A stretch of 64,000 nucleotides of DNA from Sympetrum striolatum (Eukaryota; Arthropoda; Insecta; Odonata; Libellulidae), in assembly GCA_947579665.1 (NCBI GenBank), contig OX388351.1, positions 51,220,939-51,284,938 of the forward strand. Reading direction: 5' to 3'. A model generated the notes under the pieces. It was not told where the DNA came from and ran no database searches. It saw only the letters and a list, made by a program, of their open reading frames with translations. Shown one piece after another: positions 1,921 to 28,600 of this stretch (positions are counted from its first letter, which is position 1; the number at the start of each line of letters is the position of its first letter). The translations under genes were made by a program, and so were the position numbers.

Positions 1921-2176
1921 CGCCAGCTGTCGGCGCCCGGCGCCGGATCTCCTGATCTACGGAGCCCGTTGCCTGTGTTGCTGAGGTTCTAGCGGGGGAG
2001 TGGGGGTGGCGAGGCCCCTGACGGCCAAGCTGCCCCCGTGTGGAGGCCCTGGGGGATGCCCTGAAACGGTTTTCACCCCCTTTGGACAATGAATATTGCC
2101 CGACTGTCTTTCGGAGAAGCTTCGATTCGAGATTGCCGCGCCCGTGGAAGCCGAGTGCGGCGAGAGTGGAACGTAT
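1921..2176 (+). other. Proximal 3' UTR of nerfin-1, GC-rich
   Basis: Non-coding continuation after the TGA. Composition stays GC-rich until about 2200 and then drops sharply to AT-rich sequence where the microRNA-site array begins. No splice donor or poly(A) signal is evident here, which supports transcription running on into the array. Confidence 0.5.
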
Positions 2177-4095
2177 TCTAGTCAACCCTTTGGAGGGACC
2201 TAGTCATTGAGACTCTAGTCATTTGGGCGTCTGAAGAATCTTCTGGTCGCTGCACGCACTCTGTCATTGTGGTATCTTGTGCATTTGCCCTAGAGTAACT
2301 ATCTAGTCTATGTTGGGTTATTATTATTTTTAAGTTGTTTTATTTTGCTTTGTTGAATTTTGAGTTTGTTTTTGATAATGCAGCAACTCCACTGATATCA
2401 GTAAGTTTGACTGTGACAGCAGATGAGTCTTATCTAGTCATTATCTCTAGTCATTAATGCTAATCATCACCCAATTGGATTGTCTGCGGAAACGCAATTG
2501 GTTTACCTTAGTCTAGTCATTCAATCTAGTCATTTTTTGATTGAAATTTTTCAATTAATTTTAATTTTAGTCTTGAATATTGTTTTAATTTAGTTTTTAT
2601 GAGTTTCTCCTGTTGAGACAACTCATGTTTTCCACACGGCTTCCCCGTTTTTACTCATTCGTTGTCTACTAAATAACTGGCACTATCGAATATTCCGAAT
2701 GTTTTTCTCAATTTTCAACAATATTAAGGGAAATTCTCATGATATACATCAGTTTTTGTGGCTGAGTTGTTGAATCATCTATGCTTGAGTATCTATTTTT
2801 GTATCGTTGGTCTAGTCATTATCTATGATACTTTCACAGTATCAATTCAGCATGCGGATATATAAAAGAAATTAATTGCATTTAAGGTTTTTCGATTTTC
2901 AACATGAATTTTTTGTTTCGCACTCTGATGTTTAATTCTAGTCATTCGCATCTAGTCATAGCAGAGGAAAATTATATTTTAAAATTTTTATATATTTGAG
3001 AAAGATATTTCCACTCTCCATAAATTCTTATAGTTTATTTCTAATCATTTTCTAGTCAGAATTCTAGTCATTGTTATATTAATATCGTCTAGTCTGATTT
3101 CAGTACTTTTCCAAAGTCCAAATTCTAGTCATCATTAGAAATTATTGATTTTCCATTTATCTACACCAAATTCTAGTCAATTATATGCCTAAACTTTAGT
3201 AAATTATATTGACTAAATTTATGGTCTCTGTCAGTGCGTTTTCTAGTCATTTTGCAGTATATTTGGTTCCTTTGGTTATTCATGAAAAATAATCAATTAT
3301 TTTTTAAATGATTGAACTTCAATTTAATTGCTTAACTATTTCGCATTTACAAAAACTAAGTCTCACTTCTCCAAATTTAGTCATCTATTGAGTTGTGTCT
3401 TGTCATTATTTGGTTTTATTATTCATAATCTAGTCATTCCTGGAGAGATTTTCTAGTCATGGAAGTATACGAATTGTATTAGAAATTTTAGTCATAATTT
3501 AGAAAATTTCTTGGACTTCTTAATTTGTCTAGTCATTCTTGTGAAAATTCTAGTCATTTTCATTTATTTCTAGTCATTTTCATTCAATTCTAGTCATTTT
3601 CATTTAATTCTAGTCATTTTAATTAAATAATAGTCATTTAAAATTAATTCTAGTCATTTTTTATGAATTCTAGTCACGTTTAATCAATTCTAGTCATTAT
3701 AATGAATTCTGGTCATTTTGATAAATCTTAGTCATTCTAATGAATTATAATCATTCTAATGAATTTTAGTCATTTATGTAAATTTTCTAGTCATTTAATT
3801 TGAGAATTGAATTCGTATTTAGGCACTCCAGGTGTTTTAATCAATCTGGTCCTTTGAAGAAAGTAAATTCAATTTATGCATGATTTGTCTTTCGATCTAG
3901 TCATTATTTGAAACGATCCTAGGAATTGCTTGCTAATTCAGTCATAATTTAGTTTGTAGGCATTTCTAAGGGATTTTCTAATATTCTAGTCATTGGTAAA
4001 ATTCTAGTCATTGATAAAATTCTAGTCATTACTTCAATAAATTACGTTTCAATTAGTCTAATTTCAACTCTCATCATAATTGTAAATTCTAGTCA
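2177..4095 (+). promoter_or_regulatory. Dense array of miR-279/996/286 8-mer seed matches in the nerfin-1 3' UTR
   Basis: The octamer TCTAGTCA occurs 30 times on the + strand, starting at 2177, 2214, 2433, 2446, 2512, 2525, 2811, 2937, 2951, 3051, 3063, 3124, 3172, 3242, 3429, 3452, 3528, 3549, 3569, 3589, 3609, 3649, 3669, 3689, 3786, 3896, 3985, 4003, 4021 and 4088. Seven-mers lie at 2200, 2302 and 3088, and many one-mismatch copies (TTTAGTCA, CTGGTCA) lie between. Most copies continue as TCTAGTCATT. TCTAGTC is the reverse complement of seed GACUAGA shared by insect miR-279, miR-996 and miR-286, and the trailing A makes each a canonical 8-mer. Drosophila nerfin-1 is an established miR-279 target, so position and strand both fit. 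Chance would give about 0.03 octamers in 1.9 kb. That the sites lie in the mature 3' UTR is inferred, because no transcript data are available. Confidence 0.8.
3528..3793 (+). repeat. 20-bp periodic minisatellite built from the miR-279 site
   Basis: Octamer starts at 3549, 3569, 3589, 3609, (3629 mutated), 3649, 3669 and 3689 are exactly 20 bp apart, each unit resembling AATTCTAGTCATTTTCATT. To the right, at about 3708 to 3775, the units continue with mutated octamers (TCTGGTCA, CTTAGTCA, ATAATCA, TTTAGTCA). This looks like local tandem amplification followed by decay at the right edge. Confidence 0.85.
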
Positions 4096-5683
4096 TTGGA
4101 ATCGTACTAAACTTTAAGTTTCAGAATTGTGTTATTGTCAAATAATTGGAGAATACTTTTCATAATCTCGTTTCCGTCCCTAATCAACTTTAATATTTCT
4201 AATTTAGCTTTTCATGTCTTTCATTAGGTTTATGATTTTATTTAGGTAATACGCACTAGTCAATTATGCGATTCTTCTATAGTCCAGTTTCGATTCTGCT
4301 AGTTCTTGTGTGGTGAACATGGTTTCATCTCATAGTTTACAATTAATCAGTAAACTTTTGAGTACTGGGATTGTTCACGTGCAAAGAAATTTCAGTCGCT
4401 TGCTGCGCGTCTCTGGAAACGTTTTCATCAGTGGTTAGTTGCTCGTATGTAAATATCTTTTATCATTTATTTAGGCATTCAGGGTTGTTGAATAAATTGT
4501 CAAATTATATTCGACTCTAGGAAAAGCTTGAATCGGCTATTTATGTAAAGAATTATTCGAAGAAGTTTAGCCGCATTTCATTAATGCAGCTAATGCCGGG
4601 ATTGCATGGTCAATTGTTTATCAAAGTCAATATATTTATTTCAAAGTAGAGTTATGTTATTTATATTTTTATTTTTCTAAACTGAAGAGGGTGTTTATGC
4701 ATCTCATTTTTAATATTTGGGGTGGTTCTTAGTTTGCATCAAACTTTGAGTATTTTGAGCCACATTGTTAACAAAGTATGTACTGTATCGTATTCTTAGA
4801 GCTGATTGAGCACTTCTCAACTCACGCAAGCAAAATTCCGCTGCTTATAATTACTTTCTTCCTCTTTTATAATCAAAAGAGGCAATAGAGACAGAGGCAT
4901 TTCTTTCTTTTCGTCATTTCCGCTACATTTCTTAGTTTCAATTAACAAATGTCTCCCGTGAATTCTGTCGTTGCCATATTAATTCTTAAATTTGTCTCTG
5001 ATGAATGCACAATTCGTAATGTATTTGTGCGTGCGAATTTGGTCGCTTGATATTCCGTTGGTCTGTATAAATTCAGTGATTTGCGCCGAAAGACATGCCA
5101 ATATCAACTATTCCTATTATTTCATCTGTTACTCAAGTGCCTACATGCTGTGTGTATATAATTATTTGTCCATACTTAATATTTGTATATGCTGAAGTTG
5201 CACAACTATTTCGAACGCTTGTTCTAAAACTAAAACTTCTGCGTGCCATGTTCGTCGTAGAAATTTCAACCATGTCGAATAAATTACGTCATAATGTTGT
5301 GGTAGCTTTAACATTCAAACAAAAGACGCGGTGTTTCGCGAGTGGCGACCGCGTTGACATCTTCCGGGCATTCTGTAAAACTCAACGATAGCCCGCTCTT
5401 TCAATCCTGGCTTTTTCCTGAACGTGTTGATTAGCGAAAGAAACTTTTCGTGTGCTATGTACATTAATGGGAGACCCTAATGGAAAAGTGTCATTGGGGA
5501 CTCTTTCTGGTATCAAACTTTTCAAAAGGTGCAAAATAGTGAGAATGAAGATGTGGTGAATTAACTTTTCTGGAAGCGACGTATTTTTCCAAAGTGGCCT
5601 TAAAACTTAATCTTAGAACTTATCCTATTAGTAATGTTTCATGTTGTGAGAATGCTGTTGTATAGAAATTATATGGAAAATAA
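4096..5683 (+). other. Probable distal nerfin-1 3' UTR, no gene seen
   Basis: AT-rich with no convincing coding potential. It holds one CTAGTCA 7-mer (4256-4262), AATAAA hexamers at 5278 and elsewhere, and a Pumilio-type UGUAAAUA motif at 4448-4455. A poly(A) site cannot be chosen. The lone perfect octamer at 5721 suggests that the UTR may continue to at least 5.8 kb. Confidence 0.35.
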
Positions 5684-5798
5684 CTCCCGTTCGGCCCGTG
5701 AGGCCGAGGGAATGAGTGAATCTAGTCATTTCGTAGCACTCTGGGCCTACTGATTCTTCCGTGAGAATCCGTCTACGGGCTTGATCTCAAGGCCCAGA
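5684..5798 (+). other. GC-rich stem-forming element, possible structured 3' UTR module
   Basis: In otherwise AT-rich DNA, TCGGCC (5691-5696) pairs perfectly with GGCCGA (5702-5707) around the loop CGTGA, extended by CCC/GGG across a two-base bulge. Further on TCTGGGCCT (5740-5748) pairs perfectly over 9 bp with AGGCCCAGA (5790-5798), enclosing the hairpin GATTCT/AGAATC (5752-5757 with 5764-5769). The miR-279-type site at 5721-5728 lies unpaired between the two structures. It is not a tRNA: there is no T-arm consensus and the span is too short. Function is unknown. Confidence 0.45.
5721..5728 (+). promoter_or_regulatory. Isolated 31st miR-279/996/286 8-mer match
   Basis: A TCTAGTCA followed by TT, as in most array copies, but 1.6 kb beyond the main cluster and lodged between two potential stem structures. 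Its preservation outside the repeat argues that it is a selected site rather than spill-over of the minisatellite. Confidence 0.55.
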
Positions 5799-7543
5799 TA
5801 ACCTAGTCTCCCTTACCCTCTGTAAAATTATTCCCATTGGTAAATCTTATCATATGTAAATATTTGATTGTATGTTAGTATCGGTAATAACTTGCTTGTA
5901 CCTTTATAAATGATTAATTGGTGAAAGTGAAGGATTAATACAGGGTGAATTCATTCACATTCGGAATTGCTGCGCTTAAAACAGCAGCTATTCCATTTAT
6001 ATAAGTATTTAAGAGAGTGGGTGTAAAAAGAGATTGAAATCTGTATAGACAGAATTATATATAGTTATTAGTCGACATATTCTATCTTCCTCCGATGATT
6101 TTTCAATCGTCCCGAAGGACAGCTCTACCAAATCTTGTTTATAAGCAAAAGAAATGAAATAACTGTAAAATTTATGTGTAATGTGGTAATTATTTAATGT
6201 TAATCACTCATTTGTAATTTTTTTAACATGAACAACTTGCTTGTACATTCCCTGTAACATATTTTTCACATTTACTTATATTTATATTATAATGTATGAT
6301 TTGTACTGGTAACTTTTTAAATTATTTACTTAGGCTTCATTTAGTAATTAGTAATAATAATTTTGCAGTAACTCATTCGAATGTACCTTCGAAGAATTAC
6401 TGTGTCTAATTGTATTATTTTTTCTGATAGATCATTCTTTGTATTCGATTGATAAATCGCTGGAATAAAATGTTTTGCATAATAAAACTGTTTTTCTTTT
6501 CCTCTTAACCTTTTATACGGCAGAATACTTCGCAAATAAATTGAAGGTATTTTACTTTGATGGCTGATTAATTTTCCTTCTGGAGATAGAACTATTTTTC
6601 CCATTGTATTAAAAAAATACTTCGTCATTCGTTTGAATGAAATTCTATTTTTCTCGTCAAAGTTAGGTTAATTTCAGCGCGGGAGAAATTGCCCTACCAC
6701 AGCAGCTTGACAGTTTCTAAATAAAGTGTTCTTTCAAAAATCCTCTTTAATAAATTAATTGATTCCTGAATCGATTATTTGAGGTATTTCCATCTTGTTG
6801 TCCTGAATTTTTGCCTGCTAGATTCAGTAAAATCAAGTATTAATCGGAAATGGAAAAGATATTTTTTTGTTCAAGAATCCAAGAATATCGCAGTTTATAT
6901 TTGAATGTAGAGGGAATGAGGTGCTTCTACTTGGCTTTGCAATTCCATAAAGCTAACTAGGAACAAAACAATTCTGGAAAGCACAAAATGTGATTCCCAG
7001 GACAATGGATGACACCTAGTTAATTTTATCGGATAGCTTAAACTGAAAGTGTTGACTGAATTCATCTTTGATGGATAGTTTAACTTATTATATAAAGATC
7101 ACCAAGAAAGCGAGTGCTTACCGCTGGGAAAGTCAATTTTTTCTTTGATTATTTTCCGACCTAAATACTAATAGAAGAAATAATAGTAGCAGTTTGTAAT
7201 ATTCTATAAATCAATGATAACTGTGACACAATTTCGAAGATAATTATAATTCTCGTCTTGAATGAGCGCTCTTCTGCCGCAGGTACCTCTGCACTTGAAA
7301 TCGCTATTCCATTCACATCACTGAGCCATAACTGAACGTCAATGCCCCTACCATCTAGCGAGTAAGGACAACACTAAATGCAGGAAATATAGAGATTGTT
7401 GGAGGTGTACCTCGTAGAGAGCTTAGTAGACTTCGTGAGATATTTTGGTTTAATTTTGTAATAGCAAATATCGAAAATCAACTAATTAAATATAATGTAG
7501 CCTTTGTTTAGCATATAAAGAAAATCTTACGGTTTAACTAAAT
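5799..7543. other. Intergenic region between nerfin-1 and RALGAPA1
   Basis: AT-rich, with AATAAA hexamers near 6464, 6481 and 6720 that could end the nerfin-1 transcript, and a UGUAAAUA motif at 5855-5862. A slightly GC-richer patch at about 7260-7440 precedes the RALGAPA1 start and may hold its promoter or 5' leader, but no core promoter motif is decisive. No gene is seen. Confidence 0.4.
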
Positions 7544-25600: not shown

Positions 25601-28600
25601 TTAAGATAGAATATATTTTTACAAATTAAGGCTAACCTGGTTAGCTCAAAGCGAAGTGTGGTAGTTTTAAATGAATTGTGGCTCAATAAAACCAAGATTT
25701 CTATTCCCCAATTGATCTTACATTTGACATTAAACTATAATTTGGTATTTATCTATGACATATTTGTGCACTCTTGCAACTGATGACTTCTTTGTGTTGT
25801 AGGATCATAAGGAAAATGGTAGAATGCTGCATTCCAAAGGTGATCATAAGCAGGAGAATTTGTCAGTTTATGCAGGATCTCAGGTTTGTACATTCACAGT
25901 GTTAATATCCATTCCCAGATTTTTATGTTTATTTCCTTGAATTTGGCTTGGATATAACTCTTTTGTTCCTTTTTAAAATATCATCCTACTGTTTACAGTG
26001 TGTACTTCAAGTGTTCGTGACACATGCTGCTAATGTTTTCCTCTTAGAAGTCAGCCCAGATTATCCTCTTCTATTGGAGGAACAGGTTGATACTTGTAAA
26101 AGGGTCCTTAACATTTATCGCTACATGGTCATGCACACTAGAATGGAATCTGCCACTTGGTATGTATCTCTCCCTCATCTATTCCATCCCTTGCAGTTTA
26201 GTTTATTATCGTGTTATCATGTATGTATTAGCATATATTCGGTGCCACCTGGTAATCACGTTGCCAACTAGTAATCTTACTAAATTGCAGCATATACATT
26301 AAATAAATAAATAAATATTGTGACTGCTACTTCAGTGGAGAAATAGAAGTTCATGTGATGTTTTATTTATTCATAGCAGTGCGTGCGTGTGTGTGTGCGT
26401 GTGTGTGTGTGTGTGTGCGCGCGTGCGTGTGTGTGTGTGCGCGTGCGTGTGCGTGTGTGTTTGCGTGTGTGCGCGCGTGTGTGCGTGCGTATGTGCGTGT
26501 GTGCGTGTGCGCGCGCGCGCGCGCTAGTGGGCGCTCTAACGTGAAAACTATTGATGGTATCAATACCAAACTTCATATTTAGTACTCTTTTGTGTGCTGT
26601 CAGAGTTGATTAGTTTTTGGAGTAAATCAGTTTACCGGAAGTCGAGCTTCATTCAACAAAGCTCATTTCCGGTTTTCAAAATATCTCCCTAAATATGATA
26701 TATACGTATATTGTATTACTTATAAAAGTTTTAGATAATATAATTTACTATAACTTTTGTATTTAACATATTTTTGTATCACCGGTTGATTAGGAGATAT
26801 TCGTGAAATACCGATAAACCGGAAGTAGCTGATATGTACTTTGTGGGCGCTCTAACATGAAAACCATTCATTGTATCAACACCAAATTTCATATATAGTA
26901 TTTTGGTTGGTGTCGTTAGAGTTGATTAGTTTTTGGAGTAAATCAGTTAACCGGAAGTTGAGCTTCATTCTTCAAAGCTCATTTCCGGTTTTCAAAATAT
27001 CTCCATAAATATGATATTTAGGTATATACTATTAATTACAAAGGTTTTAGAAAATGTAATTTACTATAATTTTTGTTTGAAACATATTTTTGTATCACTG
27101 ATTGTTTAGGAGGTATTCAAGAAATACTGATAAACCGGAAGTTGCTGATTATGTACTTTGTGGGCGCTCTGGGCTCTATGGGCGAAAGGCCAATTCCATC
27201 GTTTTTCATCGATCGTGCCCCGAAAAACATTATTTATAATGTTTTTGGTGTCAAAGATAATAATATATATATTAATCACTCATCTTCCAAGTTTAGATGG
27301 AATATAGAGTTCGAAATTACTGTCGTAGATAAATATTTACATCTTATATATGGAGAAAGTCATGTGCTGGCCACATCAGATTTTTTAAAAATAATTTGGG
27401 TATAAGCTTCATTTTACAGATTGGTATGCGGGTATTTGTTTATTGAAGTGTAAAAAAACTAAAGGTTGGACAACTCTCAAATATTTGCTCAAAATCACTG
27501 TGTAAATTGATGAATAAATATATATTTTTTTACTCCTTTGATTGCTAGATATGCTTTCATCATAAATATCCTTTATGATGTTCAGTTAATCTTTCACCAC
27601 TTGTCAAAAGGTTTCCACGATTCATTTCTGCTCACCTTAACATACTCTCTATCTTTGCTCTTTAATGATGGATTTATTTCTTTATGGATGGAGCTATGGA
27701 TATTCCATGTACACTCCTGGCCAAAATTAACACAGCACCTCCCTAGCGATCCTTACGGCCGGTGCTGCGTTAATTTTGGCCAGGAGTGTACATAACATAA
27801 AGTGGGATTGTTGTTTCATAAATTGATTTTGTTTTGAATAGTATGTTTTACAGTTTTTGCTGGGGTATCCAAATTATTTCACATACCTGACGAACTTTAA
27901 TCAGTAGTTTTACCATATATTTGTCTGTTTGAGGTACCCTTTTACCCAAAAAAAACTTTGGTGCTCAAATGTACCTTGCAAAAATGTTATCACCATTTAA
28001 TATGTAGTTGATATACCGTATTACATTTGTCATCATGGCTGAAGGAGACCAATGAAAGATGGGTAGATTAAAATAATCTATCTGTAAACTAAGAGACTAA
28101 TTTCCTTCTGTAAGTTTCATGAGAAATTGGTCTTTCAAATTGACCTGTTATTGATATTGAAGACCTAAATGTAACTACAATAGGTTAAATGGAGCTTAAG
28201 AGAATATTGGATGTCCATGGACATAATTTAAGAAATAAATAAAAGAATGCTATTACATGTTGCAATACAGATTTGAAAGAGTCTCATTTCCGATGGAAGT
28301 CCAGTGAGATAATGAGCATTTCTCTTTACAAATAATGACATTTTAATGTACTTATCTTTTACTAGTCTCCATCCCTGTGCTCTAAGATTTCAATTTTCTG
28401 ATTATGCCTTCTCAGTCATGGTAATGAATAATCTTTGAAGCTATGATGTGTTGAAGTCATATAAAGCGAATTATTAAACTTAAATGAATATCTTTGCTTT
28501 TGCAATGGTTTAAATGGAAGCCAAGGGTATTTTCATGATCCTTGGAATCAAAACTTCAAATCTCTGTATCATTTCAGGATTAATGAGTGATAAAATCATG

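Follow-up and report, generated by a model that had tools for sequence, protein, structure and literature searches.

For any one microRNA, an animal mRNA typically has a single site or a few. The established dense arrangements compared here are found on circular RNAs or in repeat-rich coding sequence: CDR1as (ciRS-7), a circular antisense RNA, carries 71 sites for miR-7, ZNF91, a member of a repeat-rich zinc-finger family, has 24 sites for miR-23 (19 of the 24 in circZNF91 being 8-nucleotide sites), and Sry has 16 sites for miR-138 (passages of PMC4165365). In humans, 3673 clusters have been predicted as sponge candidates, some of them in protein-coding genes (e.g. 54 miR-4310 sites at TUBGCP6); these were called by binding energy and are candidates only (passages of PMC6108476). 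Engineered sponges are likewise built from repeated 3' UTR sites, 20 of them in the fly miR-279/996 version (passages of PMC12064045). TDMD triggers, among them Cyrano, NREP and fly AGO1, zfh1, h, Kah and wgn, combine a seed match with 3' pairing around an unpaired centre, and none is described as lying inside an array of seed sites in passages of PMC10899785 and PMC10102002.

By gene and by seed, the system to compare is Drosophila nerfin-1 with miR-279 and miR-996. In fly heads, nerfin-1 is a key miR-279 target and is strongly derepressed in mir-279/996 mutants (passages of PMC4456407), and a nerfin-1 3' UTR reporter decays via CCR4-NOT when miR-279 is present (passages of PMC3510486), in agreement with the original prediction, which had named fly nerfin-1 as a miR-279 target. 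Fly miR-279/996 are found in glia and neuroblasts and are almost absent from neurons, and Nerfin-1 acts in young neurons (passages of PMC12064045).

Here, we will describe a locus of the dragonfly Sympetrum striolatum in which the same seed is matched to the same type of target gene, with 31 8-mers in about 3.5 kb. The stretch of DNA analysed, referred to as the window, is 64,000 nucleotides long and corresponds to C47:51220939-51284938 of the 1.35-Gb assembly. Its relevant features, in window positions, are as follows:

721-1920, + strand: nerfin-1/INSM1-type C2H2 zinc-finger ORF, uninterrupted, 399 amino acids from the ATG at 721
1921-6490, + strand: predicted 3' UTR, from the stop codon to the AATAAA doublet
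2177-4095, + strand: main array, 30 exact TCTAGTCA 8-mers (exact-match count)
2421-2440, + strand: extended pairing of site 2433, seed followed by 7-8 contiguous pairs to microRNA nt 14-20/21
3168-3221: weak tandem row without a second octamer, with site 3172 at its edge
3546-3797, + strand: tandem block, period 20 changing to 19, with 8 exact sites besides several degenerate units
3979-4030, + strand: tandem block with 3 exact sites, period 18
5684-5816, + strand: GC-richer structured island holding site 5721 (fold and GC)
5712-5728, + strand: extended pairing of site 5721, seed followed by 7 contiguous pairs to microRNA nt 13-19
5721, + strand: isolated 31st exact TCTAGTCA (exact-match count)
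6464-6486, + strand: predicted distal polyadenylation signals, two AATAAA (6464 and 6481)

Like CDR1as, this array has seed-type sites in dozens, all for the same microRNA, and like ZNF91 and Sry it holds many sites for a single one. It differs from CDR1as in lying in the predicted 3' UTR of a linear mRNA, and from ZNF91 in that 19 of the 30 array sites fall outside the octamer-bearing tandem blocks and none in the ORF. It follows a transcription-factor-type gene. The human clusters rest on binding energy, whereas the dragonfly sites are exact 8-mers; unlike engineered sponges, the array occurs naturally, has irregular spacing, for the most part lacks 3' pairing and sits on a gene of the miR-279 target type. 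The pairing of TDMD triggers is resembled at 2 of the 31 dragonfly sites, which would be candidate triggers. In the light of CDR1as, circZNF91 and Sry (passages of PMC4165365) and of the 3673 human predictions (passages of PMC6108476), the view that the locus would be a new kind of regulatory arrangement proves too strong; as far as a partial literature search shows, 31 exact 8-mers in the natural 3' region of a target-family gene, mostly outside tandem repeats, are an extreme case of a known kind and not a new category. In that partial search, no paper was found on miR-279 and dragonflies together, and the literature on Odonata, microRNAs and Ladona fulva yielded one paper, by its title on another subject.

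The upstream gene had been identified as nerfin-1, and this is borne out at the level of the nerfin-1/INSM1 type. Its start codon is inferred, within a stop-to-stop frame that runs from 214. The ORF matches the zf-C2H2 domain, INSM1 structures also support the type, and the closest protein, from Ladona fulva, has 94% identity over 100% of the query; identity is 61% over 77-78% of the ORF in the damselflies Hetaerina and Ischnura, and 56% over 177 amino acids for a Drosophila pandora protein. The matches to Odonata point to a dragonfly host, probably within or close to Libellulidae. From its predicted product the gene is of nerfin-1/INSM1 type and a candidate orthologue of nerfin-1 or nerfin-2. 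Further along the window, an exon-like ORF at 25906-26271 (+ strand) matches Pfam RALGAPB_N at 26.6 bits, just below the cut-off of 27, and as a predicted exon is likely to be part of a downstream gene. At 26527-27170, a 316-base unit is duplicated in tandem (two copies, 87% matches) and adjoins a GT/GC-rich repeat.

The nerfin-1-type stop codon occupies 1918-1920, the first octamer begins 257 bases downstream, and the array would lie in the 3' UTR predicted for this mRNA. After the stop, AATAAA occurs at 4036, 4491, 5278, 6464 and 6481, the first ATTAAA at 3622, and the weaker poly(A)-like hexamers TATAAA, CATAAA and AGTAAA at 2861, 3019 and 3198. Upstream of the first AATAAA lie 29 of the 31 sites, upstream of any AATAAA or ATTAAA 21, and upstream of all eight hexamers scanned 7. 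No ATG ORF of at least 60 amino acids was found between 2204 and 5000, and the idea that the array is a protein-coding repeat was rejected on this ground; three such ORFs overlap 2204-6500, two small ones on the + strand at 5001-5391 and one on the - strand at 6341-6628.

On both strands of the window, TCTAGTCA occurs exactly 34 times, with 30 copies in the main array, one each at 5721 and 21537 on the + strand and two on the - strand; 1921-6500 holds 31 on the + strand and 0 on the - strand. The count agrees fully with the 30 perfect sense-strand 8-mers that had been claimed for 2177-4095, and the octamer is, as also claimed, the canonical 8-mer match to the miR-279 seed, all 31 sites pairing with nt 2-8 and placing an A opposite nt 1. 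Dinucleotide shuffles of the whole window (n=100) give an expectation of 1.87 copies and a largest value of 6, and shuffles of 1921-6500 (n=1000) a mean of 0.11 and a maximum of 2, with any 8-mer reaching at most 13 copies; an order-2 model expects 0.51 copies in 1921-6500. Sites for one microRNA are thus far above chance in this region, as would be expected of a sponge. Weaker miR-279 sites are also found, namely 7mer-m8 sites at 2302 and 3088, 7mer-A1 sites at 2199 and 4255, a 6-mer at 5802 and four G:U variants after the nerfin-1-type stop. When 59 insect microRNA seeds, with the best 30 of 59 listed, were compared with 1921-6500, the miR-279 family had 31 8-mers and each other seed at most one. 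No miR-9 7- or 8-mer is present in 1921-6500, whereas in flies nerfin-1 is targeted by miR-9 as well and is predicted to have miR-1 sites (passages of PMC12064045).

The octamer is not a common satellite of the genome, a possibility that had been raised against the array. The 10-mer TCTAGTCATT occurs 1313+1338 = 2651 times genome-wide and its reversed control 1383+1403 = 2786 times; being no commoner than the control, the word is not spread through the genome. Octamer pairs 4-34 bases apart number 42 (control 39), and 15 of the 42 lie within the nerfin-1 array; a dispersed satellite was rejected on these counts. Nine octamer triples were found and the reversed control, with 16, has more; seven (overlapping) of the nine are the nerfin-1 array, and the other two are a simple repeat and a minisatellite of three copies. 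Since arbitrary octamers form triples elsewhere too, the array is distinguished by its 30 copies in 1.9 kb, most with unrelated flanks, and no comparable cluster was found elsewhere in the genome at spacings up to 34 bases. No DNA related to the window was found in viral_contigs. A macrosatellite on contig C1 (about 5598731-5669342), made of repeats nested at offsets of about 2.3 and 4.2 kb, with a likeness of some 88-97% over kilobases, contains 12 TGACTAGA on one strand per 10-kb stretch (two stretches, 20 kb read); transcription of its opposite strand would give an RNA with many miR-279 8-mers. Like the commoner triples of the control, it counts against the response-element reading given below.

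The organism is also predicted to encode a microRNA with the seed GACUAGA, as the proposal of a miR-279 target array had demanded. Three host strings lie within two mismatches of fly miR-279 (reversed control: none), and a search of the genome with the Rfam mir-279 profile gave six matches at five places, three of them above the cut-off of 56 bits:

C47:21623273-21623680: mir-279 two-hairpin cluster, 77.3 and 61.4 bits
C46:66013596: mir-279-family hairpin, 56.5 bits
C11:76833034: mir-279-family hairpin, 54.6 bits, just below the cut-off
C46:64684951: mir-279-family match, 40.5 bits, below the cut-off

The 77.3-bit hairpin was also matched on the opposite strand (43.7 bits), and the predicted mir-279-family hairpins of the host number four, perhaps five. 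The cluster of two hairpins shares its contig with nerfin-1, at a distance of about 29.6 Mb. All five matches carry TGACTAGA, four share CACTCATC at nt 13-20, and from the hairpin arms the predicted host miR-279s are UGACUAGA microRNAs. Among the matches listed (20 of 27 papers), fly miR-279 is printed as UGACUAGAUCCACACUCAUUAA in thrips, mosquito and other papers, and its first 19 letters also appear in mite and mollusc papers. Within the window itself, Rfam gave six matches at E values up to 1, none of them to mir-279, and the array as an antisense source of miR-279-like hairpins was rejected for this reason.

The reading we favour, with a probability of roughly 0.62, is that the 31 8-mers form an oversized miR-279 response element that would keep the mRNA silent at very low levels of miR-279. 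In the proposed model, Argonaute loaded with miR-279 would bind sites of the array and recruit GW182 and CCR4-NOT, which would then clear the nerfin-1 message. A low threshold is suggested by the number of sites because, by arithmetic only, for the level of free complex and with independent binding assumed, half of the mRNAs would be bound by one Argonaute or more at 0.023 Kd if they have 31 sites, compared with 0.26 Kd with three and 1 Kd with one. Since 3' pairing with each of the three host miR-279s stays below 7 contiguous pairs at 29 of the 31 sites, slicing is not expected. In a dragonfly, a sharper version of the fly boundary between cells with miR-279 and neurons with nerfin-1 would be expected. 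Several points count against such an off-switch: 31 sites exceed what repression needs, and the hexamers at 2861-3198 together with the signals at 3622 and 4036 could remove many of the sites. Predicted accessibility is no better at the sites than in the controls (mean 0.116 versus 0.153 and 0.136), and no common 3' supplementary motif was found, contiguous 3' pairing to fly miR-279 averaging 3.19 at the sites and 3.19 at random places. The spacing of the dispersed sites shows no excess at 12-40 (6/18, P 0.30) and a weak excess at 14 or less (4 versus 1.3, P 0.03). Argonaute is reported to bind a seed site more tightly when AU dinucleotides adjoin it (passages of PMC10899785), and one is present on at least one side at 31 of 31 sites, a count without control, the region being AU-rich.

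The same sites might act in the opposite direction, with the nerfin-1 mRNA titrating miR-279 by holding up to 31 Argonaute per molecule and derepressing other targets in young neurons. Such a sink is conceivable because the number of sites exceeds the 20 of the engineered fly miR-279/996 sponge (passages of PMC12064045); it is also above those of circZNF91 (24) and Sry (16) (passages of PMC4165365), and the lack of 7 contiguous 3' pairs at 29 of the 31 sites, with no slicing expected, speaks in its favour. Binding of miR-279 should, however, destroy the predicted linear nerfin-1 mRNA, and we regard titration as rather unlikely.

We consider it quite unlikely that sites 2433 and 5721 trigger the destruction of miR-279, with the 29 others serving as landing places, so that nerfin-1 and miR-279 would clear each other. 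Both sites combine a seed match, 7-8 contiguous pairs on the 3' side and a centre in which 4 or 3 bases of the microRNA stay unpaired, in line with known trigger geometry (passages of PMC10899785); the base opposite nt 9 pairs as well for two of the three host miR-279s. Pairing was scored against the three host miR-279s, and the threshold of 7 pairs, reached at 2 of the 31 sites, was chosen after looking. Shuffled tails yield at least two such sites among 31 in 6, 19 and 18 of 4000 cases; for random place sets the figures are 86, 74 and 111 of 20000 from the window and 122, 132 and 145 of 20000 from 1945-6480, so that the controls range over 0.15-0.73%. A single such site is, on the other hand, no rarity, turning up with shuffled tails in 58, 103 and 135 of 1000 cases. 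With the host microRNAs in place of fly miR-279, site 2433 rises from 6 pairs to 7-8, but site 5721 falls from 8 to 7. The latter sits in the structured island, where the fold of 5660-5830 has a z of -2.77 (2/200 shuffles equally stable) and GC is 0.40 and 0.51 in two 100-base steps, within an otherwise AT-rich 3' region; 5600-5900 had no Rfam match near any cut-off. Against a trigger stand the 29 of 31 sites that lack such pairing and the published screen for fly triggers, whose text has 0 mentions of miR-279, although the same-seed miR-996 rose there in one trigger knockout (PMC10102002). A degradation role for a seed-only array may nevertheless stand, because the decay of worm miR-35 is seed-dependent and independent of the 3' region, according to review passages (PMC10899785).

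How the array arose bears on whether the octamers are there by neutral growth of a minisatellite whose unit merely happens to contain the octamer, a reading we hold to be improbable. The array did grow partly by local duplication, as judged from its repeats: the two octamer-bearing tandem blocks hold 11 of the 30 sites, in decayed units of period 18-20 that share their flanks, as whole minisatellite units would; these blocks had gone unmentioned in the original prediction. There is also a weaker likeness among other parts of the array, and the 16 triples of the reversed control indicate that short octamer repeats are not rare. The remaining 19 sites do not share whole units and keep exact octamers despite unrelated flanks and irregular spacing, and the microRNA whose seed the octamer matches is known to regulate nerfin-1 in flies. 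Ungapped, the flanks of these dispersed sites have an identity of 0.291 versus 0.300 at random positions (95% range 0.271-0.330), and gapped a score of 19.9 versus 19.9. Over the 1594 start positions of 2177-4095 outside the two blocks, exact, one-mismatch and two-mismatch copies number 19, 7 and 15, against 0.1, 1.6 and 12.3 expected, so that outside the blocks the octamer is mostly either exact or gone. Because 19 sites retain the exact octamer while their surroundings show no likeness, the sequence suggests that selection holds the octamer itself, whatever process made the copies.

The dispersed sites are, however, not all independent, since they share a following T, some dispersed parts show a likeness of 71-80% to tandem ones, and the weak tandem row includes site 3172. 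A T follows the octamer at 16 of the 19 dispersed sites versus 36 of 87 other CA (p 0.0008), and TT at 13 of 19 versus 19 of 87 (p 0.0002); the base directly upstream carries 0.02 bits. The T goes beyond what seed pairing alone needs and thus counts against the oversized response element that we favour. That a neural RNA-binding protein, for example a UAG-binding one of the Musashi or hnRNP-A type, recognises the word in place of miR-279 is very improbable: the single orientation of the sites fits RNA and the common TT exceeds the seed match, but the preferred words of such proteins are shorter than the octamer, and the shared word starts opposite microRNA nt 8 and includes the A opposite nt 1. 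The TT also fits the raised affinity of Argonaute for AU-flanked sites (passages of PMC10899785).

The combination of the same seed with the same type of target in dragonfly and fly suggests that the link between nerfin-1 and miR-279 is older than flies. One natural locus makes it testable how repression depends on the number of sites and whether a coding mRNA is able to deplete the microRNA that represses it, and could show whether arrays of seed sites cooperate with degradation-type sites. Beyond silencing at a low threshold, the 31-site nerfin-1 array may form a two-way switch that senses traces of miR-279 and also removes it, by mass binding, by the two degradation sites or by both, a possibility that we put forward tentatively and consider unlikely. 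If it is true, neurons would settle sharply into either a nerfin-1-on or a miR-279-on state.
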